64,000 nt of DNA from Pegea sp. RAD2-039. Its lineage: Eukaryota; Chordata; Thaliacea; Salpida; Salpidae. The DNA lies in NCBI GenBank assembly GCA_034620365.1, contig JAQGEQ010000003.1:1116001-1180000 (forward strand), read 5' to 3'. The translations under genes and the position numbers were made by a program. Shown here piece after piece: positions 13,906 to 36,235 of the stretch. Under the pieces are notes generated by a model. That model ran no database searches and had not been told where the DNA came from. It worked only from the letters and a program-made list of their open reading frames with translations. Each line of letters opens with the position of its first letter. The stretch's first letter is position 1.

Positions 13906-15480
13906 TTACATCAAGTAATCAGATACCTAATTCCGTCTGTTTGTTTTTGTACTCATTTTTATCGTTTGATTTAAAACGGTAAATTATTAGATTAGTTTTT
14001 CATCGAAAAATTGAAGTCGGTTTGATTCTTTGTTTGTTAGTAAGCTAACACAGCTCATTTATTTCAAATTAATAAACTCCTAAAAGAAAGTCTTGATTAC
14101 AAAATCTTTCATTCAAAAGTTACAAAAATTAATATCCTGGAGTATTTAATAAATTTTTAATATTTTCAAGTTAGGTTTTTTTGAATTGAATATTAATTAT
14201 TCATCTTTTTTTTGATGTACATTCTACATTAAATTGTTCAAGAAATTGTAGAATATGAAATTATGAAAACCTCTACAAAAGTACATCTGTTGACAGCTAT
14301 TGTATTTAATGTCAGTTTAGTTTCAACAAGACCCCTTTCAATTTAAACGTTTCTAAATATAAGAACTGAAGTTGCTTCAGCTATTCAATTTCTTGTGTTT
14401 GTTTTAGACCCTTATTTTCAATATAAATTCCTCTTTTCTTTGATTTTGTTTGCTTAGTACTAAATAGCTAATAAGACTGAAAACATTTTATTTTAAATGT
14501 ACTAAACGATAATGAATGAACTGTTTTACTTCATTATTATATTTATAGTAAAAAAGCATAAAATTAACTAAAAATTTTTAGCTGAAATAGTACTTGCTTT
14601 AGATTCGATTAAATTTTGATTTATTATCTTGTTATCACAACCGCCAAAGTAAATTAACAAATACAAACCGCTACCAAGTTAAATGTCAAGTAAACGAGTA
14701 TTTAGTTTGTTTTAATCTTTAATATATTAGCATCCAAAGAGTTAATTTTTTTCGGCGAAATTGTGGTAAGCAAATTAAATAAATAAGTTGATCAATATAA
14801 AATTTCAATTTATTGTTTCATGGCAAAAGTACGAAATAAACGATTAAAACTGTGATCATATTGTAAAATATATTTTTTAAATATAGCAGTATCTAGCTGA
14901 TTGACATGCTTTCCCTGAGGCAATTTAGGTGCCTTATATTTCATAGCAATTAAAAATAAGTTAATTCTGTCATAGTTTACTCTTGGAGTTGACGGAAAAA
15001 AATATTTAGTATATCGAAAAAAGTTATAGAAATATACACGAGTTTAAAAGTTTCTAGATGGCTTCAAGAAGACGAGAGACTTCAGAATTAATCTAATTTT
15101 TTCATGTCTATGAGATCTGCTGATTTTAAAGTTAGTAAAAAGTAGGTGTTGATCATCATTCCTTGAACTCCGTGTCTTGGATGCTTTGGCAAAATAAATT
15201 CTAAAGGAAAACGCCTTCTCAAACTTGGTCTCCCACAAAATATCTGTATCACCTCTTTTTTCATGATCAAATCACAACACAAAGTTTCCTAGAGACATAA
15301 GCATTGGCACCAGCTAGATCTTAGCAAGGGCATCTTCTAGGCAATGACAAGATCGTACCATGGTGCTCATTGTATCACCCATCACTTTCTAAAAACGTAA
15401 AACTAACCTTCTGCAAAAATGGAGTAAAATAAGAATTTTTCTTGCCCTAACGCTCCGAGGAATTTAATTTTCAATGACCA
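13906..15480. other. Intergenic, AT-rich
   Basis: No gene seen. 14,900-15,480 is somewhat less AT-rich and may be further decayed retroelement sequence leading into the LINE relic to the right, but no frame supports this clearly. Confidence 0.3.
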
Positions 15481-15524
15481 AAAAAAAAACGTTTCATGTG
15501 TTCGTCGAAGGAATTTACCTTTAT

Positions 15525-16075
15525 TCAAGATCTGAGCGAAGTTCTTATCAATGCATTGCGTCTAAAGTCGAGGAGCAAAGTAAAAAATATCTATATCCGC
15601 GACTTGCTTTTTACCGATTACGCAACTGTTGTTGCTTATTCAGCAAAAGAACTACAGATGCTGATAGACAAATTTTCATCAGGCTGCAGACTTCGGAATG
15701 AAAATTAGACTAAGAATGACAAAAGTTCTCAGCCAAAGTGCTAACGTTCCAATCAATATCAATGGCTGCGTCGTTGAGGCTAAAGGTAATCCTGTCTATC
15801 TTGGCTCAAAAATGATTGTCTTCAGTACGCTATTGAAGGTCAGCGAAACTTGGACTTTGATAAAGGCTAACGACAATAAACTCAACACCTTTTATTTTCG
15901 TTGTTTTTGTCGCATATTACGCTTAGCATGGTAAAAACATATCTCAAACAAAGAAGTCTTAAGGCGCACTGGTCTGACAACAATGTGTAGCATGCTAAAC
16001 GAGCAAAGGTTTTGCTGGCTCGGACACGTGGTATAGATAGATGGTATGCCTTGCAGTTCAGTTTGTTTCCACCGG
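15525..16075 (+). mobile_element. Decayed LINE, RT C-terminal part
   Basis: Plus-strand frames give pieces of a widespread non-LTR reverse transcriptase: 'IRDLLFTDYATVVAYSAKEL' (the catalytic F/YADD is mutated to TDYA), 'VYLGSKM', 'SETWTLI', 'LNTFYFRCFCRILRLAW', then 'NKEVLRRTGLTTMCSML' and 'FCWLGHVV'. This is the usual order of the thumb/connection region in such elements. Frame shifts and stops separate the blocks. It is a different LINE family from the CR1-like copies nearby. Confidence 0.75.
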
Positions 16076-16867
16076 CAGAAGAGTGACCGAGTTCAGAAAG
16101 TTACTAACGTGGAAAATCTGGACTCATTTCTTTTTTAATTCGGTACTTCTCTCTATTACAACCAGATAACAAGAAGCTAACATATGAGAAACAAATTTAC
16201 ATCAAAATTATATTCATCATTTTATAAGTCTGCTTTTGTTAAACACTTTAATCAAAATAGCTGCAGAAGTCAATGGCGCCGGTATCTTTTGTGCATTAAG
16301 AAGAGAGTTAGTTTATAAATTTTTGAAAGAAAATGCTTTTTGACAAATGAAAGAACAACCAGGTAGAAGAAAATAAGAAATTGGGACAAACATATGAGTC
16401 CATCATCTTGACTTTGTTGAAGAAGGTAGATCAATAGCAGCCTGGAGTTAGTTGCAATGACCAAAATCCCTAAAGAAGAAGCGCAACATCCTAAAAGGGA
16501 TATGTCAGACACAAACGATACAAAGAGTATCTGGTTTTATAAAGAAATAAAGCCATCTCTGGCAAGTAGGAAAGCAATAGAAATTGAAGATTCTGATTCG
16601 TTTCGATTTTATATTTGAATATATTCTTTGAGGTTTTCCAGATTTTAATTCTATCTTTACTGATTAGAACTCCAAATTTTGAAAATCCCAAAGAATAAGG
16701 GTGATGTTTAGAAAACAGATGCTTAGAAAGTTGTTTCAACTATTTTTACTTATGAAATTTCATCATAAAATTGGAAAATGTGACTAAGAAGAGGATAGAA
16801 ACTGTTTTTTACAAATATAAAGCAGAAAATATTTGCAAGTAAACGCATAAAAGGTAATTTTTGTAAT
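16076..16867. other. Spacer between two LINE relics
   Basis: No supported gene or RNA. Short open frames here have no recognisable content. Confidence 0.3.
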
Positions 16868-18960
16868 TAGAGTAGTGCATAATATGTGTGAAGATAATCG
16901 CTTAAAAATAAGCGTCTTCTAAAAGAGACGTATAACAGAAGTCAGAAGGAACAACCAACTGATTTCAAATACAAAGTTCGAGGTCCACCATGGGCCTTGA
17001 GAATTGTTAAGGTTTCTTAAAAAAGCAAAAGTGGTAAATAACCTCTGGACTCACATCTTCTTTTTTCACATTATCCTCGCACACACTTGTGAATACCATC
17101 CTTTCAGCCCAAGATATCAATTCACAGAAGCCTATCATCAAATCTCACAAGCGTCAAAAAGACAATTCTTCTAATACATTAGGTATGTTCTTCAACGCAC
17201 GGTCGATTATTAACAAAATTTTCTAATTGAAAGCTCTTTTGCATTCTCAAGATTTCACATTTATTTTTATTACTGAAATTTGGTTGTAACCGTTTTATCC
17301 TGATTGTTTTATGGTTGACGGTAATCTTTTTTGTGTTTTGCGTTGTGACAGACTGTATGATAAAGGCAGCGGTATTTGCGTAATTTACAAAACATCGCTT
17401 GCACCCATGATCTCTAGAATTCAGATCGATGCCATTAATTATCCAGGATTTGAGATTATAGCTTTCTATTTTCCTTACTCAAAGTCCAAATTTTCTCGTT
17501 TTATATGTACCTACCACCATCTAAAATTAATGATGATATTACTATTAAGACCTTATTGAAAGTTTTAAGAGTGTTGTTGTCCTGAGTTATATATTTTTGT
17601 AATTTTAATTTTAGTAAAATTAATTGGAATAACCCGAAATCAGCATTTATGGGAAGATCATTTAACTTGGATAGCGACAATCCTACTTCAGCTATTTTAA
17701 GTCATACCTTTGTAAGCTCCTCTATCTCAGATGGTTACTTTTCCGACTCAAGTAACCCTGGGAACATTTTCTACGTTGATCAAAAATAACCTTTTGCTCC
17801 GACATGCGATCACAACATGATTGAATTCAAGCTCAATCAAACTTTTTCCATGAACGTTAAAACTTTAAAACGGAATTATTATCGTGGAAATTATGATGGT
17901 ATTAATGAGTTTATATCAGGTGTTGAATGGATTTCTGTTTTCAACCCTACCGAAGACATCAATACTATTTACTCAAGGTTTTCTAACATCGTTAATGAGT
18001 CAATTGAGTCGATTGAAAAATTAATATATTTTTATCGAGTCAACCAAAAAGCACATTTTCCCAAATATTTCAGGAATTTACAACATTTAAAAAACCTCCA
18101 ATACAATTATGCCACGAATATATTCGGTCCTACACCTTGGCATTACTCTATCATCTGACTTTAAATGGCGCAATTATGTTTCCAAAATCTTTGGAAAAAC
18201 AATCAACCTTGTCTACCTTATTATAAAGACCTTTAATTCTAAGGACTCATGCTTTTTTATCAACCTTTTCAAATTGTACGTACGTCCAATTCTTGAATAG
18301 AATGTTAGTACATGGTTGCCATATCAAGTTAGTGATATCAAAAGAATCGAATCTGTTCAGGCAAAATTTACGAGATTGGTATGCAGGAAACTTAATATTA
18401 AATATGATAGTTATATACATCGTCTCAGCTTCTTCAATTTAGAAACTTTGGAAATTCGACGGATTAAATACGACCTAATTCTTATTTCTAAAATTATCTA
18501 CAGTTAAATTGACCTTCAGTTTGATGATTTCTTTTCTATTAGTCCTTCCCTCAAGTTATATCAACTCAGACGACACACATTACATCTTAATAAGCCCATA
18601 TCACCTGGTACATTAATCAGATTGAATTTTTTCTCATACCGCACAATCAGTACTTGGAACCAGCTGCCATCAGACATTGTCATGTTAGAATCACTCGCGT
18701 TGTTTAAGAAGAAGTTGAACCGTTATAATATTGCCAACATTGCTATTTCTAAACTGTGAAATTTTCCTTTTTTCTAATATTGCTTTAATTCTATGTAATT
18801 GTCCACTGTAATATGTTTTGAGGACTACCGAAATGCCATGTGTTACATCTTTTCTTTCTATATTTCTAACTCAATAGATGTTATTTGTGAGAATGTGTGT
18901 TAGCAGGAGGTGCTCTCTTCAGGCACCCTCCTTTGCATTAATTGTAATAAATATGGTTAA
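16868..18960 (+). mobile_element. CR1-like non-LTR retrotransposon, internally deleted copy
   Basis: Homologous along its length to the copies at 31-37 kb. It starts 5'-truncated within the end of ORF1, runs through the endonuclease part ('RCDRLYDKGSGICVIYKT'), then at about 18,100-18,120 jumps from the linker ('LRNLQ'-type) straight into the post-catalytic part of the reverse transcriptase ('LGITLSSDFKW'), losing the whole YADD palm. It continues to the C-terminus ('NIANIAISKL', stop near 18,760), a 3' UTR with the GGAGGTGC/GCACCCTCC hairpin and the TGTAATAAAT end. Many stops and frameshifts; not functional. Confidence 0.85.
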
Positions 18961-20926
18961 CTTAAAAACATAAAAATTGCTTATTCTGATAAAAAAGGTT
19001 TTGTTTTAGCAATGACAACTTTTGTCTTCGCTATCCTCAGAAAATTTACTACGAACTTTAATTTATTCAAAATCATTATTTTTTTTTATTAATTAAATAT
19101 CTTTTAAAATAATAATTAATTAAATCATAATTTATTAATTTAACTTTGAAACTTTTAATTTTTCAAGTGATATTGTTCCGTATTTTAGTGAATTAAGTAA
19201 AAGAGAAACTCACATTAATAACTAAGTTTTTCAATGAATGTTTTTGGTTATCGCGCAAAGGCTGTAGGAAATGATTTTGTTATTGAATTTTATTTAATTG
19301 AAGTTTATTTAATTACTATAGAATTATCTGAAATAATAAGAATGATATAGCCATTTTTTCGAATAAGTTATCTTTAGGCTTTAAATATTATGCTTCTATG
19401 AATAAAAACAAAACTTGTTTCAAACTTAATAGCTAATTTGTTTTTATGAACTTTTAGCTGTTTTGCCTATTAAAGCATTAAAATTGGCGGTGTTTAAAAG
19501 TTTTTTTTTTGCTTATTCTTTTATTTGATGTTATTTCTTAAGTACAATTTTGTTTATCAATAATTTCATAATTGATTTTTCACAAATTCCAAAACTTAAA
19601 CAGATACATTACATTTTTTGATCAATTTAAGTCAATTTCTTCATAGTGGTATAAAAAACAAATGTATATTTGTAATTTATTTTTATTGATCAGTTATTTT
19701 ATGTTAATTTTTATTAAATAACTATTTATCATCATAGTATTTTTCAAATAAGTAATTATTTACCAAGTGTAGATTTTATAAAGGATTTGAGATTAGAAAG
19801 TGTTTCAATCTTTTTAAATTTTTGTTTTAACAAATTTAAGATTAAATAAATTTGTCACATTAAATTTAACTAACTATAATAGTAATAGTTGTAAAACTAC
19901 TATGCATTACTAATACCTTTTGTAATCAAAGACTAACCACAAGATATTTTTAAATTATAAATGCTGTAATTTTTTGCTTTTTCTATATTTATGTAAAAGC
20001 TTGAAGTAAAAATTGTATTTATATAAATATGAAAAATTTTTGTTATAAATTGTTAATAATATGATATAATCATTATTTATCTATTGTTTAATGATTTTAA
20101 ATAATCAACTTTTCTATTAGTTGAGAATCTTTTAATTTAAAAGCACCAAATCTTTTGAAGAGGATATAGTTGATCTTTTAGGCTGACTTATATATTTATC
20201 TTGGGGCTATTTTAAAAGCTTTTTCTCATTACAATTATTTTATTTTTCTGTCTTTCTATATTGATCAGTATTATTCTTGTAAACTGATAAAATCTAAGAA
20301 ATTACACTTTTTATTAAATAATTAAAGATAACTTAATATAAGAAGCTTTATTTTAAGAAATTTAATTTTTCTCACAAAGTTTGTATCTTGAGTAAAAAGA
20401 TTTCTCAGTAATCAAATAACTTTTTTTAATTCTAACTTTTGAGCTTTTTGTTACTCTTGAATCTTAAATATTTTTTATTCTTCTCCTATTTTATAAACTT
20501 CTTTTTTAATTTTAACAAACTTTAAGTATGAGTAATAACTTTAGTTAGACTTTTTATTAAACATGTTAATTTTTATAAGATTAATTTTTTAGAAAATATA
20601 ATTTTTTAAAGATAGAAGATTTTTTTTTCTATTTATGATTACACTTAATTATAAAAGTATTAATTTTTTGAGCAAATGATTTTTAAAGTGAAAAAGTTTT
20701 GATAAATTATTTATTTGTTTATCATTAATTTCACATAGAATTAGTCACTTAGTTTAGGTTTGATGTTTGGTCATAAATATAAAGTTGGCCTTTATATTTT
20801 TAAACTATTTGAAATTAAATAAATAAATCATTTTTGATAGAAATTTATTTCAGTTGATTGTAAGCTTTATGAATCATTTGAAAATTCACAATTTCAAACT
20901 AATACATGAATAATTAAGTTTTTAAA
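18961..20926. other. AT-rich intergenic sequence upstream of the Kir gene
   Basis: Nearly all A/T with no coding frame. A TTTATTTCAG near 20,840-20,851 could be a splice acceptor for a 5' UTR exon of the potassium-channel gene, but this is only a possibility. Confidence 0.3.
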
Positions 20927-22123
20927 ATGACAAAATTTGCTGCAAATACTGTTGAAGTTGATGTATCAGACAAGCTTAAAAAAGAAGAGTATACAAATTC
21001 TGGGTCATGGTCTAGTAAAGAACCAATCAGATATATTAAAAAATCTGGTCATGTTAATGTTAGCCACATAAACTTAGATGGGAAACATTTAATGTATTTT
21101 AAAGATATATTTACAACCCTTGTAGACTTACAATGGAGATGGAATCTGTTAGTATTCACATTTGCTTTTTTAATAAGCTGGATAGGGTTTGGTCTTCTCT
21201 ATTGGCTTATATCTTATATTAACAATGATTTTCATGAAGATAGAGATCATTTTCCCTGTATTAATAACATTGAAAGTAATCAACAGTTCTATTCAACTTT
21301 CTTATTTTCATTAGAGACACAAACAACGATCGGTTATGGTTTCAGAACTGTTACTGACCAGTGTAAGACCTGTTTGCTTTTAGTTGTAGTACAATCTGTA
21401 TTTGGATGTGTACTTGATGCTTTCATGATTGGTTTAATTATGGCTAAAATTATGAGGCCCAAAAAACGTGCAGAAACATTGTTATATAGCAGGAATGCTG
21501 TTATTAATGTAAGAAACGGACAATTATGTTTTATGTTTCGTGTTGGAAATTTACGTAAAAGTCACCTGGTTGAAGCAAGTATAAAAATGCAATTTCTTAG
21601 GTCTAGAACTACTAGAGAAGGAGAACACCTACCTCTTGAACAAATCAATTTGGAACTAGACTTAAATGGTGATTCAGATCGTTTGTTTCTTGTAACACCA
21701 CAAACAATTTGTCATAAAATCGATGAGGATAGTCCTTTATGGGATTTAAGTTGCAGTGATTTGGAAACAGCTGATTTTGAGATTATTGTATTGCTTGAAG
21801 GTATGGTTGAAGCAACTGGTATGACTACACAAGCACGAGCGTCATATTTACCAAGTGAAATTATGTGGGGTCATCGGTTTCATAATGTTATTTCATATCA
21901 TAAAAATCGAGGTTACAAAGTTAATTTCAGAGATTTTCATTTAACTTTTTTAACTTCTGAATGTCCTTTGTATAGTGCTAAAACTATGAATGAGTTTAAA
22001 GAGAATGAAAGACCATTTAAGTTCTCAATTGGTTCAGTTGATGCTAGTAGTACTAGCAGCTCATCACTTGAAAACAGTAATTCTGATTTCTCAAATTTTG
22101 ATGGGCAAAGCTCTTGTGTATAG
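20927..22123 (+). CDS. Inward-rectifier potassium channel, Kir2-like
   Basis: A 398-residue single-exon protein with the full Kir plan: cytoplasmic N-terminus, slide helix ('YFKDIFTTLVDLQWRW'), M1 at about 72-98, pore helix and selectivity filter 'SLETQTTIGYGFR' (GYG at 136-138), M2 at about 148-172, then the cytoplasmic domain. Kir2 traits include 'ETQTTIGYGFR', D164 in M2 ('CVLDAFMIG', the acidic residue needed for strong rectification by Mg/polyamines), 'PKKRAETL' for PIP2 contact, 'VGNLRKSHLVEA', and 'DEDSPLWDLS', 'ADFEIIVLLEGMVEAT'. C111 and C146 are placed like the extracellular disulfide. The C-terminus ends SSCV, a possible class I PDZ ligand (S-x-V). It should set resting potential in the plasma membrane. 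The start is preceded by AAAATG. Lacking introns is common for Kir genes. Subfamily call is by motif only. Confidence 0.92.
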   Translation: MTKFAANTVEVDVSDKLKKEEYTNSGSWSSKEPIRYIKKSGHVNVSHINLDGKHLMYFKDIFTTLVDLQWRWNLLVFTFAFLISWIGFGLLYWLISYINNDFHEDRDHFPCINNIESNQQFYSTFLFSLETQTTIGYGFRTVTDQCKTCLLLVVVQSVFGCVLDAFMIGLIMAKIMRPKKRAETLLYSRNAVINVRNGQLCFMFRVGNLRKSHLVEASIKMQFLRSRTTREGEHLPLEQINLELDLNGDSDRLFLVTPQTICHKIDEDSPLWDLSCSDLETADFEIIVLLEGMVEATGMTTQARASYLPSEIMWGHRFHNVISYHKNRGYKVNFRDFHLTFLTSECPLYSAKTMNEFKENERPFKFSIGSVDASSTSSSSLENSNSDFSNFDGQSSCV

Positions 22124-22337
22124 CTGTGATATTGTTTTTTCTATCTACAATTTTCCTCTTATTTGTTTACATTAAGTACATTACGCTTTCATCTTATTTC
22201 AAATTTAGCTTTTTCAGCTTTTTATTTCTGTAAACTACTTTTTGTCATGTTAACTTCTCTTTTTACACATTTAAAAAATTATGTTTTGAATTTTTACATA
22301 TGTAAGTTAATTTTCAGTTAAACTTGTTTAATTTCAG
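22124..22337 (+). other. Short spacer between Kir and Gla-RTK genes
   Basis: Only 214 bp separate the Kir stop from the Gla exon. It ends in a good acceptor (TTTAATTTCAG, 22,327-22,337). One possible short first exon lies at 22,247-22,301 (ATG to a GTAAGT donor, phase 1, fitting the phase of the Gla exon), but it would need a 36-bp intron and gives a weak signal peptide. I do not call it. Confidence 0.3.
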
Positions 22338-25300
22338 GTTTAGTTAATATGATTGAAATAGATGAAAAAGAAGCAAACAATTTTTTAACACGTAAATTAC
22401 TTGCAAATTCTGTATTTCATTTTGAAGAAGCTCAACAAGGTAACTTAGAACGTGAATGTTATGAAGAACAATGTAGTTATGAGGAAGCGCGAGAAGTCTT
22501 TGAAACAGATGTCAATGGATTAGTAAGATCCTAATTTTGATTTTTAATTTTTCTGATAATTAATATATAATTCTAATCAATAATTGATATTATTATAAAC
22601 TGATTTATTTTACTATCAGTGTTAGTTTTAATCTTGAGTACAAGTGTAATAAAAAATCTTTGCATTTATAGCACTTTGTATTGTAAAAACTCCTCGATAA
22701 ATGAAACCAAATCAAAAAAATAATATTCACAATAAGCTTAAGTTTAGTAATAGAACTGCTTCATACCCAATCTAAAGAACTATCACCTTTGCAAGTTTCA
22801 TTTTTTTATACTTTTGATTTGAATCTTTCATAAAAAACAAATTAAGTAAAAGAATTTATAAAATCTTGTTGACCTATAAAAGCTCCTTAACAACAAGGTA
22901 GTTTTGATGGCTTGACAAAAATTGGTCCTGGTTTTTTTGAGGACCAAGTCTTAGCGGGAAAAGTTGAAAACCCAAAAAAGTTTAAAAAAATTATCTAAAT
23001 AACTACTTAAGAATTTAATTGAAATGATCTCAAATAGTTCATCTTTATAAAGAAACCTCAAGATAAAATGCATCAGACACCAAAAACAAATAATTTTTAA
23101 ATAAAATCAATAAAGAGAATCACTTGTGTAGTTCATCTTAGATGTCATCATCATCACTTTTTCTTGTTTCAGGTTGTATTCTGGGATAGTTACACCGGTG
23201 TAAGTGAATCAAGTAGTCAAGACAACCCAGTTGGTATAATAATTGGGGTGATATTTGGTGTCCTTGGTTTTGTGGTCATTTTAATCCTTTCAATTGGATT
23301 CTACAAACGTTGGAAAGATAAAAATACATCTTCATCACCTCCTCCTTCATACAACGGATACCCGATGCTTAATTACTGCTCACAGAGACGTGAATTCCAC
23401 CCACCCCGCCCCAATTACCCCAATAATCACTTCAACTCTTACAGAGCAATCGAATTATTACGAAAGTGAAGCTTTCATGACTGAAATGGACAATGAACTT
23501 GCCCTGGGCCTCAGTCACTGTTACATCGAAAGAGAGCGTCTCGAACTTGGAGCCCTGATTAGCGGGGGTAATTTTGGTGACGTGTACAAAGGGCGTTTGA
23601 AGGAGCGCGATAACACCATCACTGAAGTCGCTGTAAAGAGTCTCAAGAGTGAGTATCATCATGAGTAGTGACGTCATCAAGTGACGTCATCAATCTTTGC
23701 AGCATTGCAACAAAAAGCAGACATTGAAAAGTTTCTTCGCGAGGGTGTGATGATGAGGGGCTTGGAACATCGGAATATCCTGCATCTAGTCGGGATGTGT
23801 ATTGATTCAGATGTTGATCGCGGGTTCTCATCTCCTCTTATTGTTCTTCCTTTTATGAAGAATGGAGATTTAAGAACTTTTCTGAGAAATGATCAAATTG
23901 TTAGTCTTCAATGAAGTTGATTTTGTTCCCTGATCTTTATCATCATCTTGATCCTCATCATCATCTTGATCTTTATCATCTTTATCCTCATCATCTTGAT
24001 CTTCATCATCTTGATCTTCATCATCTTGATCCTCATCATTTTGATCCTCATCATCTTGATCCTCATCATCATCATCTTGATCTTCATCATTTTGATCCTC
24101 ATCATTTTGATCCTCATCATCTTGATCTTCATCATCTTGATCTTCATCATCTTGATCTTCATCATCTTGATCTTCATCATTTTGATCTTCATCATCTTGA
24201 TCTTCATCATCATCTTGATCCTCATCATCTTGATCTTCATCATCTTGATCTTCATCATTTTGATCCTCATCATTTTGATCCTCCTTTTAATCATTAAATT
24301 TTCTTTCATCTTGATCTTCATGCAAATCATATTCTTTGATCTTTATCATCACCAATCCCAAACTTATTGTATGACGTCATCAACTTCTCGACTATCTCAA
24401 TTTTAGATCCCAAATCTTTCAAGGTCTTCTGTAATCTTTTCTTCATATTTTAGGTGATGACTGTTCTCAACTTACTTCGCTTCTGCTATGATGTAGCAAA
24501 GGGGATGGCATATCTCACTCACAAGAACTTTGTCCATCGTGATCTAGCCGCTCGAAACTGCATGTCAGTTTCACGCTTCACTGATTTCATTCACTAAAAC
24601 GTCCTTTTCACAAATAGGGTTGATGAGAATTGGTGTATCAAAGTGGCCGATTTCGGTTTGACGCGAGATATGATAGATCGTAACTATTATAAAAGTGAAG
24701 TGAAAACACAACTGCCACTAAAATGGATGGCGCCAGAGAGTATTAGATACGGGAAATATAATGAGAAGAGTGATGTGGTGAGTTAATAGATGAGCAAGTT
24801 TGTGTGAAAAGCTCACAAGTTGTTTGTAGTGGTCGTTTGGAATTGTTTGTTGGGAGATTATGACTCGAGGCGGGATTCCTTATCCTACTGTAGAAGCTGT
24901 TAACATCATTCATTATTTAAATGATGGAAATCGTATGCAGAAACCAGCTAGTTGTCCCTCAAAACTGTCAGTCATCTGTTACAATCAATTGATTGATAAA
25001 TCTGAAATTCTTATTTTAGTTTCAAAACTGTTGAAAATTGTTGGTTAGATTCACATGAAGATAGACCTACTTTTATTGAACTTGTTGATATCACTAAAAG
25101 AATTTATCGAAACGCGAAGCGAACTGTTGATGGAACTAAGGAACAAGAAGAACGCGATGTTCCTCGTCGAGAAGCTACTTATCAAAACACACAACCTTCG
25201 GAGTCTTCTAACATCAGGTTTCTTCTTCAATGCTCCCATATTTTAAGTCTCAACTTTTGCCGTTAGATTCTCAGTAAAAAATTGAGATAAATGTTTGTCA

Positions 25301-25720
25301 CGTGATCTAATCAGGGGCTTCTTGGGGCCGCGACCCATAAGTCGAGGAATACTGAAGTCTAGTTTTTAAGTTGTCATATCCCTTGAACAATTTGTGTCTC
25401 AAGGATGTAGAGTTAGATGAAGATTAAAGATTTAGATCTTTAAATAACTTTTCAATTTTAGACCTAAACCGAAGCCAAGAGGGTCAAAGCATCGGAGATC
25501 TCACGATGAGACTCAACAAAGATCTAGATCACGTGATCGGAGATCTCGAAGATTAGAAGAGCGTATCAGTATCAAGTATGTCATAAGTGGTGACGTCACC
25601 ACCGAAAATATAATTTAAAATTGCAGTGATGACGTCATCGAGTCTCCTAATAGATCTTCCAATATACAAGTTGCTATATATGGAGATGTTGAAGAAGATG
25701 GAAGAACGATCGTTGTATGA
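22338..25720 (+). CDS. Gla-domain receptor tyrosine kinase (Gla-RTK), 5' exon not found
   Basis: Ten exons with consistent phases: 22338-22522, 23173-23389, 23445-23648, 23703-23899, 24454-24563, 24618-24777, 24830-24966, 25020-25217, 25462-25575, 25627-25720. Order: PRRG-like propeptide ('[15 protein letters not shown]'), Gla domain ('[20 protein letters not shown]', closing aromatics FWDSY across the first intron), a linker of about 15 residues, one membrane span ('[19 protein letters not shown]'), a PPSY WW-ligand motif, then the kinase. Kinase marks: P-loop '[11 protein letters not shown]' (first glycine is Ser), 'VAVKSLK', '[10 protein letters not shown]', '[12 protein letters not shown]', 'VADFGLTRD', 'NYYKSE', 'LKWMAPES', 'SDVWSFG', closest to the Axl/Met group. 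The tail is Arg/Ser-rich and ends 'GRTIVV'. There are no Ig or FnIII domains. Inference: vitamin-K-carboxylated, Ca-dependent phospholipid-sensing receptor. The signal-peptide exon was not identified. Confidence 0.9.
23930..24292 (+). repeat. Intronic minisatellite, 15-bp unit
   Basis: About 24 imperfect copies of TCATCATCTTGATC(T/C)T lie inside the intron between the kinase N-lobe exon (ends 23,899) and the HRD exon (starts 24,454). The 15-bp unit is a multiple of three, so long false open frames run on both strands (Asp-Leu-His-His on plus, Met-Lys-Ile on minus). Unit variants differ mainly by C/T and by extra CAT triplets. Confidence 0.95.
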
Positions 25721-32752: not shown

Positions 32753-35678
32753 TTTTATTTATTTATTTATTTATTACAATAAATGTGAAGGAGGGTGCCT
32801 AAAAAGAGCACCTCTCGCTAACACACATTCTCACAAATTAGATCTATTTGACGTGTAAACGAAAAAGCATATGACAATGAAGAATTGCACAGAATCATAG
32901 TATTGTAAAAGAGAAAAATTCACAGTTTAGAAATGGCAATGTTGGCGATATTATAACAATTCAGCTTTTTCTTGAACAGCATAAGTGATTTTGACATGAC
33001 AATCTCTGATGGCAGATTGTTCCATGTACTGATTGTGCGGTATGAGAAAAAACTTAATCTGGTTAACGTAGCTGGTGGAGTGGGCTTATTAAGATGTAAT
33101 TTATGTCTTCTAAGTTGATATAACTTGAGGGAGGGACTAATGGAGAAAAAGTCATCAAACTGAAGATCAATTAGGTTGTGAATAATTTTAAAAATCAGAA
33201 TAAGGTCGTATTTAATTCTTCGGATTTCCAAAGTATCTAGATTGAAGAAGCTGAGACGATGCTTATAACTCTCGTATTTGATATTAAGTTTCCTGCAAAC
33301 CAATCTCGTAAATGTTGCCTGAACAGATTCGATTTTTCTGATATCACCAACTTGATATGGCATCCATGCACTGATATTGTATTCAAGAATTGGGCGTATG
33401 TACAGTTTGAAAAGGTTGACGAAAAACCATGGATCTTTAGAATTAAAAGTCTTTATGACGAGGTGGACAAGCTTGATAGATTTTCCAAAGATTCTGGAAA
33501 CATAACTGTGCCATTTGAAGTCAGATGTCAGAGTAATGCCGAGGTCTATGACTGAGGATACTCGTTCAAGAATGGATCCATTGATGTAGTATTGGTTGCT
33601 AAAGTTGGCCGCTGGCTTACGGGAGAATGTTATAACTTCAGACTTTGTTGGCTGGATTTTAAGTTGCCAATTCGCAGACCAGTTTTCTACAATGTTTAGT
33701 GCAGTTTGGAGTTTTGAGTGAGAACCAGATAATAGCTTGATGTCATCTGCATACACAAACACACTGACATTGTCTACTGTTATTAGTCTTCTGATGAGGT
33801 CTTCAATGAAAATCAAAAAGAGAAGTGGACCCAGAACGGAACCCTGAGGAACGCCGCTGGTGACTTTACTAGGAGTAGATAAAGATCTTTCTACACGGGT
33901 TCTTTGGGTTCTACCTGATAAGAAATCTTCAATCCATTTTAAGATAGAGTTGCTGATTTTTATGTTTTTCAATACAGTAATGAGCTTGTTGTGTGGAACA
34001 GAATCAAACGCTTTAGCAAAATCAAGGTATATGATGTCACATGGAGTATTACTTTCGTAATGAGCTGTAAGCTCATTGAAAAAAGTGAGATGTTGAGTCA
34101 AAGAAGATCTTCGCTTAACAAAGCCATGCTGGGCATCAGATATTAGATGATGCTCCGTCAAATGGCTAGTTATATGGTTGTGAATGATATGTTCTTGAGT
34201 TCTGCAGATAACCGAAGTCAGCGAAACTGGTCTGTAGTTAAGTGCAGTGTTTCTGGGACCCTTCTTATAAATTGGAGTAATAATAGCATTCTTCCAAATT
34301 TGTGGAAGTCTTCCCCGCTTAAGAGTCATGTTAAAGAGTAGCGATAAGGGTAGCGCTAAAGAAGAAGTACTTTTTCTTAAAAACAAAGCTGGGATTTGAT
34401 CTGGGGTGTTGGAAACTGTTGATTTTAGAGAAGAAATAGCCTTAGATACTATATCAACTGTTATGTCTAGATCTACCATCAGAGATATTTGAAAGGATAT
34501 TGGAGTAGGAAATAGTAGGAGTATTGCCATCATCGGTTATAAAAACCTTTTCAAATTGTTTGTTTAGCAATTCAGCTTTATTCTTTGGTTCCATCACCAG
34601 CTGATTGGCGTTATCAAGCAAGGGAGGTAGATGAGATCTCGCCTTAAGCTTGTGATTAATGAAGCCAAAAAACGTTTTCTTGCTAGGTGAAGATAAGATT
34701 GCACTTTCTTTTCCTAAATAAAGGCTATAAACTGATTTCTTGTAGACTATAAGAAGATCTTTGTATAGAGGTTTGATGGAAGGATCTGCTTTAGTTTGTT
34801 TGTATAAGAGGTTTTTCAAATGCTGTAAATTCCTTAAATATCTTGGCAAGTGTGGTTTTTTGTTGACTCTATATAAAGGTATGAACTTTTTAATTGACTC
34901 ATTAACAATGTTAGTAAACCTCGAGTAGATATCATTGATGTCTTCGGTAGAGTTGAAAACAGAAATCCAGTCAACACCTGATAAAAACTTGTTTATACTG
35001 TTATAATTTCCACGATAAAAGTTCCGTATGCTTGGAGTTTTAACGTTCGTAGAAAAAGTTTGTTGGAGCTTGAATTCAATCATGTTGTGATCGCATGTCA
35101 GAGCAAAAGGTTCATTTTGATCAACGTAGATAACGTTATCAGGTTTTGATGTGATGAGAAGATCCAAAGTATTACCACTAACTTGGGTTGGAAAAGTAAC
35201 CATTTGAGATCGATTATTGGCATCAAGGAAGTTTACAAAGACATGACTCAGATTGGCTAAATTAGTTTTGTCTCCATTTAAATTAAACATTTTTCCATTG
35301 AATGCTAAATTTGGGTTATTCCAATCAATTCTACTAAAATTAAAATCCCCGAGAATATACATCTCAGGACAAACAAGGCTTTTCAGAACCTTCAATAAGG
35401 CCTTAATAGTAACCTCATCGTTAACTTTAGACGGTGGTAGGTAGGTACATATAAAGCGGGAAAACTTAGGCTTTGAGTAATGAAAATTGAAAGCAATAAT
35501 CTCAAATCCTGGGCAATCAATGGTATTTATCTTAATTCTTGAAATCATGGGTGCCAGTGATGTTTTATAGATTACATAAACACCGTCGCCTCTATCAAAC
35601 AGTCTATCACAGCGCAAAGCACGAAAAAGATCACTGTCATCCAGAAAGGAGTCAGGATAAAAGGGTTTCAACCAAGTT
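32753..35678 (-). mobile_element. CR1-like retrotransposon, 5'-truncated, nearly intact ORF2
   Basis: A 2.93-kb minus-strand copy. ORF2 runs from about 35,678 to 32,920 and is broken by a single frameshift near 34,470-34,530. Endonuclease part: 'TWLKPFYPDSF', 'ILGDFNFSRIDW', 'TCDHNMIEF'; the N-terminus is missing (5' truncation). Reverse transcriptase: 'NYRPVSLTSVICR', 'IIYLDFAKAFDSVPH', 'GVPQGSVLGPLLF', 'VFVYADDIKLL' (catalytic Asp pair intact), 'LGITLTSDFKW', to 'NIANIAISKL'. The 3' UTR has the family hairpin and ends in an (AAAT)n tail on the element strand (32,753-32,778 on plus). Flanked by TCGATT on both sides. It is the youngest-looking copy in the window. Clade (CR1/L2/Rex-like) is judged from motifs and tail type only. 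Confidence 0.92.
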
Positions 35679-36235
35679 TCGATTATTAACAAAATTTTCA
35701 AATCGAAAGCTCCTTTGCATTCTCAAGATTTCACATTTGTTTTTATTGCTGAAACTTGGTTGAAACCGTTTTATTCTGATTCTTTTCTGGTTCACGATAA
35801 TCGTTTTTACTTTTTGCGTTGTGATAGACTGTATGATAGAGGCGGCGGTGTTTGCGTAATTTACAAAACATCGCTTGAACCCATGATCTCCAGAATTCAG
35901 ATCGATGCCATTAATTATCCAGGATTTGAGATTATCGCTTTTCCTTACTCAAAGTCCAAGTTTTCTCGTTTTATATGTACCTACCACCATCTAAAATTAA
36001 TAGAGGTATTACTAATAAGCCTTTATTAAAGGTTTTAAAGAGTGTTGTGTGTCCTGAGTTATATATTTTTGTAATTTTAATTTTATTAAAATTAATTGGA
36101 ATAACCCGAAATCAGCATTTATGGGAAGATCGGATAGCGATAATACTACTTCAGCCATTATAAGGCATGCCTTTGTAAGCTTTCACGATGCCAATAACCT
36201 ATTTCAGATGGTTAATTTTCCCACCCAAGTTAGCG
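35679..36235 (+). mobile_element. CR1-like element, endonuclease part (right half of split copy)
   Basis: Continues the copy interrupted at 32,752: 'LHSQDFTFVFIAETWLKPFY', 'RCDRLYDRGGGVCVIYKTSL', 'AINYPGFEIIAF', up to 'VNFPTQVSG' at about 36,234. It is truncated there by an inverted junction. Several frameshifts and a deletion are present. Confidence 0.85.

Follow-up and report, generated by a model that had tools for sequence, protein, structure and literature searches.

We analysed a 64,000-nucleotide stretch of the genome of the salp Pegea sp. RAD2-039 (hereafter the window; positions 1,116,001 to 1,180,000 of contig JAQGEQ010000003.1, C15:1116001-1180000 in our numbering, within a 105.7-Mb assembly). 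A gene on its forward strand, at 22338-25720, encodes a predicted protein in which a Gla domain, a membrane span and a tyrosine kinase follow one another. Gla domains are modules of the vitamin-K type that bind calcium and membranes. A preliminary description, made from the letters alone, had proposed ten phase-consistent exons here. Rebuilding the model returned the same coordinates and the same order of parts, with ten exons and nine introns, all of them GT..AG (650, 55, 54, 554, 54, 52, 53, 244 and 51 bp in order), matching phases and a terminal TGA. Translation from the ATG at 22350 yields 534 residues; a doubtful optional upstream exon brings the protein to 556, and residue numbers throughout refer to this longer version. 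The parts of the gene are as follows.

22338-22522 (+), exon 1: propeptide and N-terminal part of the Gla domain, with a phase-1 acceptor and the earliest in-frame ATG at 22350
23173-23389 (+), exon 2: one uninterrupted frame for the last part of the Gla domain with its aromatic stack (VVFWDSY), the 12-residue linker, the span and PPSY
23233-23301 (+), membrane span: residues 101-123 (our limits, by hydropathy), hydropathy up to 3.1
23341-23352 (+), PPSY: WW-domain binding motif, residues 137-140
23390-23444 (+), 55-bp intron joining the Gla/span exon to the kinase exons
23445-23648 (+), exon 3: juxtamembrane NYYES and N-lobe of the kinase (SGGNFGDV loop, VAVK lysine)
23543-25086 (+), tyrosine kinase domain: residues 186-444, exons 3-8 (base limits computed from the exon table)
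23703-23899 (+), exon 4
24454-24563 (+), exon 5
24618-24777 (+), exon 6
24830-24966 (+), exon 7
25020-25217 (+), exon 8: end of the kinase and start of the tail, with YQN at residue 476
25462-25575 (+), exon 9
25627-25720 (+), exon 10, with TGA

The Pfam E-values exclude chance matches for both domains. The Gla family was matched over residues 47-88 (E=5.7e-17, 62 bits, cut-off 27), in keeping with the PRRG-like propeptide and Gla head first described, and PK_Tyr_Ser-Thr was matched over residues 186-444 (E=2.3e-89, 299.5 bits, profile positions 2-255 of 258). The single span and the PPSY motif were likewise recovered, and a linker does separate the Gla domain from the span, at a length of 12 residues (89-100) rather than the earlier estimate of about 15. 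The span carries GxxxGxxxG (GIIIGVIFG), with acidic residues on its N-terminal side and lysine or arginine on its C-terminal side; by the positive-inside rule it would lie with its N terminus outside and its C terminus inside. Pfam (E<=0.001) reported no Ig, FnIII, EGF or LamG family in the predicted protein, in agreement with the earlier remark that Ig and FnIII repeats are missing, and no Sema, PSI or IPT ectodomain. The part of the tail encoded by exons 9-10 (25462-25720) is basic and terminates in TIVV, and the YQN of exon 8 is presumably a Grb2-type motif.

The Gla domain does not stand on an exon of its own: the 650-bp intron divides it upstream of the aromatic stack (VVFWDSY), and its second half is encoded together with the span and PPSY in a single open exon. 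The sole connection of this exon to the kinase, and the least secure step of the model, is the 55-bp intron at 23390-23444, which resembles five other introns in size (51-54 bp) and has a good acceptor, CTTCAACTCTTACAG. GT or GC donors at 23320-23465 were paired with AG acceptors up to 23559, requiring at least 30 bases between them, the right phase and no stop. This gave 14 pairs, four of them with GT and all four using the donor at 23390, and among these four a pyrimidine-rich acceptor is found only in the 55-bp pair. From this exon structure, the Gla, span and kinase exons probably belong to a single transcript. Retention of the 55-bp intron leaves a frame open through the intron to a stop at 23467-23469, and could yield a kinase-less, PRRG-like Gla-span protein from the same gene. 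The intron that follows the Gla exon contains AATAAA at 22648, 23100 and 23109, so an early-ending transcript is possible.

In the second Gla gene of this genome (on contig C262), a phase-0 intron interrupts the Gla domain at the corresponding point and is followed by a 25-base exon (boundaries by eye). In the gene studied here a perfect donor, GTAAGT, lies at window 23200-23205, inside exon 2 and right after the 27-base piece that encodes the aromatic stack. It sits about where the 25-base exon of the second gene ends, is read here as coding (VS) and falls outside the donor range of the splice-pair listing; it may be a remnant of a former intron or serve for alternative splicing. In the kinase part, a long repeat of the CATCATCTTGAT type occupies most of the 554-bp intron (window 23905-24290, by eye).

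Residues of the Gla head were compared using factor X numbering. Glutamate occupies 10 of the 11 factor X Gla positions, and C17, C22, F40, W41 and Y44 are kept, together with A-10 and L-6 of the propeptide. The carboxylase-binding residues of the propeptide are F-16, A-10 and L-6 according to PMC5578492. Direct sensing of phosphatidylserine by such a head would be plausible.

The preliminary description had called the kinase Axl/Met-like. Its membership of the MET/TAM group held, and within that group the kinase appears nearer MET than AXL, with the TAM side left open by the approximately unbiased (AU) test. Identities and tree were computed from 10 sequences. The kinase is 47.5% identical to MET over 276 positions, compared with 43.4% for RON, 41.4% for AXL, 41.3% for TYRO3 and 40.7% for MER; identity is 44.7% to the genome's own MET-like kinase and 36.4% to its TAM-like kinase. 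In the best tree the kinase joins MET/RON, with 96 in the Shimodaira-Hasegawa-like approximate likelihood ratio test (SH-aLRT) and 73 in the ultrafast bootstrap (UFBoot), and the AU test rejects neither a TAM placement (p-AU 0.469) nor a position outside both groups (0.0715). Among the best 60 of 2630 matches to solved structures, MET chains reach up to 269.6 bits, followed by AXL (249.9), RON (241.1), MER (up to 239.1) and TYRO3 (230.9); the total of 295.2 bits for a two-domain EGFR construct in the same set combines two copies at 146.6 bits each. The catalytic motifs are present, as are twin activation-loop tyrosines (RNYYKS).

A search of the genome with PF00594 detected two Gla exons, and a repeat at E<=10 led to the same two loci; the first look passed only two candidates, such that a Gla exon of very divergent sequence may have escaped detection. 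One of the two matches is exon 1 of the present gene (58.9 bits). The second Gla gene (C262; stretch L015, 4503-7342) encodes a classic signal peptide, an RNKR propeptide site, a Gla domain and EGF-like units before its stop. Five EGF-like units are seen by eye, Pfam EGF passes on 4, and no LamG or protease domain was reported by Pfam in this gene. LamG matches in the genome amount to 17 rows, none of them on a contig that carries one of the two Gla exons. The preliminary description had pointed to a gamma-carboxylase gene as a check on the Gla head, and a GGCX-like gene was indeed found on C213, with IFIVYFFAGIKKTDSDW and a best exon of 83.3 bits, as was a VKOR-like gene on C3, with CVVC (32.1 bits, cut-off 27.5).

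Related receptors are encoded elsewhere in the genome. A MET-like receptor on C1 has one IPT domain by Pfam, which did not report Sema, and its kinase, 59.8% identical to MET, falls with MET/RON in the tree (96.5/96). A TAM-like receptor on C258 shows an Ig match of 23.9 bits, below the cut-off of 30, and FnIII was not reported; the best single-domain matches of its kinase are AXL (270.4 bits), MER and TYRO3, and its tree position is unsupported (18/38). Because these separate MET-like and TAM-like receptors are present, the Gla-kinase gene looks like a third gene of the MET/TAM group and not like a TAM receptor with its ligand attached. In the C258 receptor (L027, 3754-6293) the ectodomain, span and kinase are encoded in two long open frames with 30 bases between them. 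Since it has almost no introns, its structure suggests a retrocopied gene.

Two features lie directly upstream of the Gla-kinase gene.

20918-22123 (+), inward-rectifier K+ channel (Kir): single open frame, stop 214 bp before exon 1
22247-22301 (+), doubtful optional upstream exon, MLTSLFTHLKNYVLNFYI: requires a 36-bp intron, against 51-650 bp for the other nine

The optional exon does not resemble a signal peptide, with a best 19-residue hydropathy of 0.94 among windows starting in its first 25 residues. The forward strand of 15000-22337 was scanned for a signal exon, defined by an ATG, a hydrophobic stretch and a phase-1 donor. The stricter form of the scan gave 0 hits in this region and 0 in the controls, under a donor rule too narrow to admit GTAAAC, the donor of the signal exon in the second Gla gene. 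The looser form recovered the signal exon of that gene as a positive control and gave 2 hits, compared with 1 and 1 in two controls; both share sequence with the end of Kir, in a different frame, and they were rejected as chance. PRRG1 and PRRG3 are described as being without a signal sequence in PMC5578492. None of the six poly(A)-signal hexamers searched for occurs in the 214-bp stretch between Kir and exon 1, and Kir is a possible operon partner of the Gla-kinase gene.

A spliced-leader 16-mer has 272 exact copies genome-wide (149 + 123), compared with 0 + 0 for the reversed control, and an identical 16-mer is given as the C. intestinalis spliced leader in PMC7986045. Many copies are dispersed and some lie in a tandem array on C4 (C4:1135044-1142217). 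Seven copies fetched from the array have a unit of 198-200 bp, and GTAAGT follows the leader in 7/7. Because no signal exon rose above control and spliced-leader copies exist in the genome, we prefer a 5′ end made by trans-splicing at 22338, from which translation would start at 22350.

An ascidian protein of similar build has reportedly been described before, in agreement with the preliminary description, which spoke of the architecture as reported from Ciona. Kulman et al. are said to have described in 2006 an ascidian Gla receptor tyrosine kinase (Gla-RTK, or Ci-Gla1) with a Gla domain, a single span and a receptor tyrosine kinase in one protein, and reportedly found gamma-carboxylase and VKOR orthologues in the same ascidian. 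Ciona has four Gla proteins, and ascidian Gla-RTK cDNAs are joined, with Gla and kinase on one transcript. Our literature searches, which covered part of the literature, turned up no description of ascidian Gla-RTK or Ci-Gla1. Compared by architecture only, the ascidian protein as reported shares its Gla-span-tyrosine kinase layout with the Pegea gene; the latter would thus be a further member of the ascidian type, rare and little-studied, and not a new design. What may be new are the two detected Gla exons, the separate MET-like and TAM-like receptors, the lack of a detectable signal-peptide exon and the missing arginine at propeptide position -1. The present analysis adds the unusual features of propeptide and keel and a view across the whole genome.

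Other relatives share parts of this layout. MET and RON have the closest kinase domain and the same twin activation-loop tyrosines, whereas their Sema-PSI-IPT ectodomain was not reported by Pfam in the Pegea protein. The TAM receptors (AXL, MER and TYRO3) have a kinase of the neighbouring group (identity about 41%), and the Gla module is found in their ligands Gas6 and protein S; neither the Ig and FnIII domains of these receptors nor the EGF and LamG domains of the ligands were reported in the Pegea protein. A Gla head, one span and a cytoplasmic PPxY are common to PRRG1-4 and the Pegea protein. However, the PRRGs are short, at about 200 residues (length from PMC3764795), and without a kinase. 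The Pegea protein is PRRG-like in its head only, because a kinase domain follows. According to PMC3764795 the PY motifs of PRRG4 bind the WW proteins YAP, TAZ, NEDD4 and MAGI.

In our preferred interpretation the locus is one gene for a receptor tyrosine kinase that crosses the membrane once and has a Gla-only ectodomain, combining a PRRG-type head with a Met-class kinase. With its lipid-sensing working included, we put the probability of this reading at roughly 0.55; the confidences assigned to the various explanations overlap and do not have to add up to one. Carboxylation, lipid binding and activation are proposed from the predicted protein. The 5′ end of the messenger would be made by spliced-leader trans-splicing at 22338, and the product would enter the endoplasmic reticulum through its membrane span, with no cleaved signal peptide. 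The gamma-carboxylase would dock on the N-terminal propeptide and carboxylate about 10 glutamates, after which calcium would fold the Gla domain. The keel could then bind acidic phospholipid (phosphatidylserine) of the cell's own outer leaflet or of a closely apposed membrane, within reach of the short linker. In the simplest scheme, crowding at the membrane and the GxxxG span would pair the kinases, and the paired activation-loop tyrosines would be phosphorylated between them. Sites in the tail might recruit adaptors, for which YQN would suit Grb2, and PPSY might recruit WW proteins.

If it works as proposed, the receptor would be a one-protein counterpart of vertebrate Gas6 or protein S and the TAM receptors. 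With its carboxylation genes retained and no more than two Gla exons detected, the animal would offer a small system for asking which role the Gla domain played in the time before clotting, if direct gating of a kinase by a Gla head is possible, and if the PRRG proteins and Gla-RTKs had a common gene ancestor. A more far-reaching proposal is speculative and in our view doubtful: the protein would be a self-contained sensor of calcium and phosphatidylserine that needs no soluble bridging ligand, and at the same time the PRRG-type gene of this animal, with the vertebrate PRRGs possibly being kinase-less descendants of a chordate Gla-RTK, or its parent.

Several observations weigh against the preferred interpretation, most of them in the Gla head. 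Gla position 39 is lost, likewise in the second Gla gene. The propeptide has leucine at -1 (RKLL/ANS) and no basic cleavage site, compared with RNKR/ANS in the second Gla gene, and glutamate instead of phenylalanine at -16. The membrane keel carries a two-residue insertion (ANSVFHFEE), and there is one extra residue upstream of the aromatic stack. In clotting factors, Gla function is impaired when the propeptide is retained, and the changes at propeptide -1 and in the keel are the best grounds to doubt simple phosphatidylserine sensing. In the kinase, serine replaces the first glycine of GxGxxG (SGGNFG), and the 55-bp intron has a weak donor (GAC/GTGAAT). PMC7986045 defines Ciona operons by an intergenic distance of <100 bp, which the 214-bp gap between Kir and the Gla-kinase gene exceeds, so a shared operon is put forward as a possibility. 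The Sm motif published there for the Ciona spliced-leader RNA, AGCTTTGG, was not found in the fetched C4 array (7 copies), which has AGCTTTTG instead, 7 times. Lastly, PRRG4 has its main WW site in LPSY, and only the binding of MAGI fell when PPPY was lost (PMC3764795); a lone PPSY may therefore recruit less than PRRG4 does.

The departures in the Gla head could also point to a single receptor whose Gla domain does not sense lipid. The domain would instead be a calcium-dependent module for trafficking or protein binding, with density, the GxxxG span or another receptor as the main driver of the kinase. This is possible but, in our view, less likely than not. The missing arginine at -1, Glu -16, the keel insertion and the extra residue before the aromatic stack would all fit, and PRRG4 is tied to protein sorting and WW partners in PMC5578492 and PMC3764795. 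However, 10 of 11 Gla positions, both cysteines and the aromatic stack are kept, the carboxylation genes are present, and the altered keel retains hydrophobic V, F and F, which could serve membrane contact. Unlikely, by comparison, is the idea that the gene is the animal's TAM receptor with the Gla module of its ligand fused on, along the lines of the merged Gas6 ligand and Axl receptor to which the preliminary description had drawn attention. A Gla module does share a gene with a kinase of the MET/TAM group, and no Gla-LamG ligand was seen among the two Gla exons detected genome-wide, the second gene combining Gla with EGF-like units and the 17 LamG rows lying on other contigs. The p-AU of a TAM placement and the unsupported tree place of the C258 receptor also leave room for it. 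Yet the merger, as originally put, was not supported: the identities and the best tree favour MET/RON over AXL, MER and TYRO3, EGF and LamG were not reported, and since the genome has separate MET-like and TAM-like receptors, the latter with a weak Ig-like match and AXL, MER and TYRO3 as its best single-domain matches, the gene is not simply Gas6 plus Axl.

The remaining alternatives divide the gene itself. The locus might make two products, a PRRG-like Gla-span-PPSY protein from messages that keep the 55-bp intron (stop at 23467-23469) and a cytoplasmic kinase from an ATG in exon 3, trans-spliced at 23445. The open retained-intron frame with its stop 25 bases past the intron, the weak donor at 23390 and the spliced-leader repeats in the genome are consistent with this, and the three AATAAA sites in the preceding intron could give a still shorter product. 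We nevertheless consider it quite improbable: the cistrons would have to overlap, the stretch from 23110 to 24292 has no start of an AATAAA or ATTAAA, ascidian Gla-RTK cDNAs are joined, and the intron spliced in cis keeps the phase, is as short as its neighbours (five at 51-54 bp) and ends in a good acceptor. An assembly or prediction artefact that joined unrelated exons is scarcely credible. Nothing was found in its favour, and it is opposed by ten exons packed into 3.4 kb of a 1.2-Mb contig and all on the same strand, by a join between Gla domain and span inside a single exon, and by matches of at least 70% identity, among the best candidates scored, at this locus only.

Two further observations concern the wider genome and the window. 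On C14, matches to cellulose synthase (28.8 bits, cut-off 24.7) and to GH6 (27.5 bits, cut-off 27) occur within 2.4 kb, a pairing which we take to be a tunicate-specific marker; mitochondrial COX1 had no match in the assembly. On the minus strand of the window, at 32923-35722, lies an element of the long interspersed nuclear element type, with open frames for a reverse transcriptase (PF00078) and an endonuclease (PF14529).

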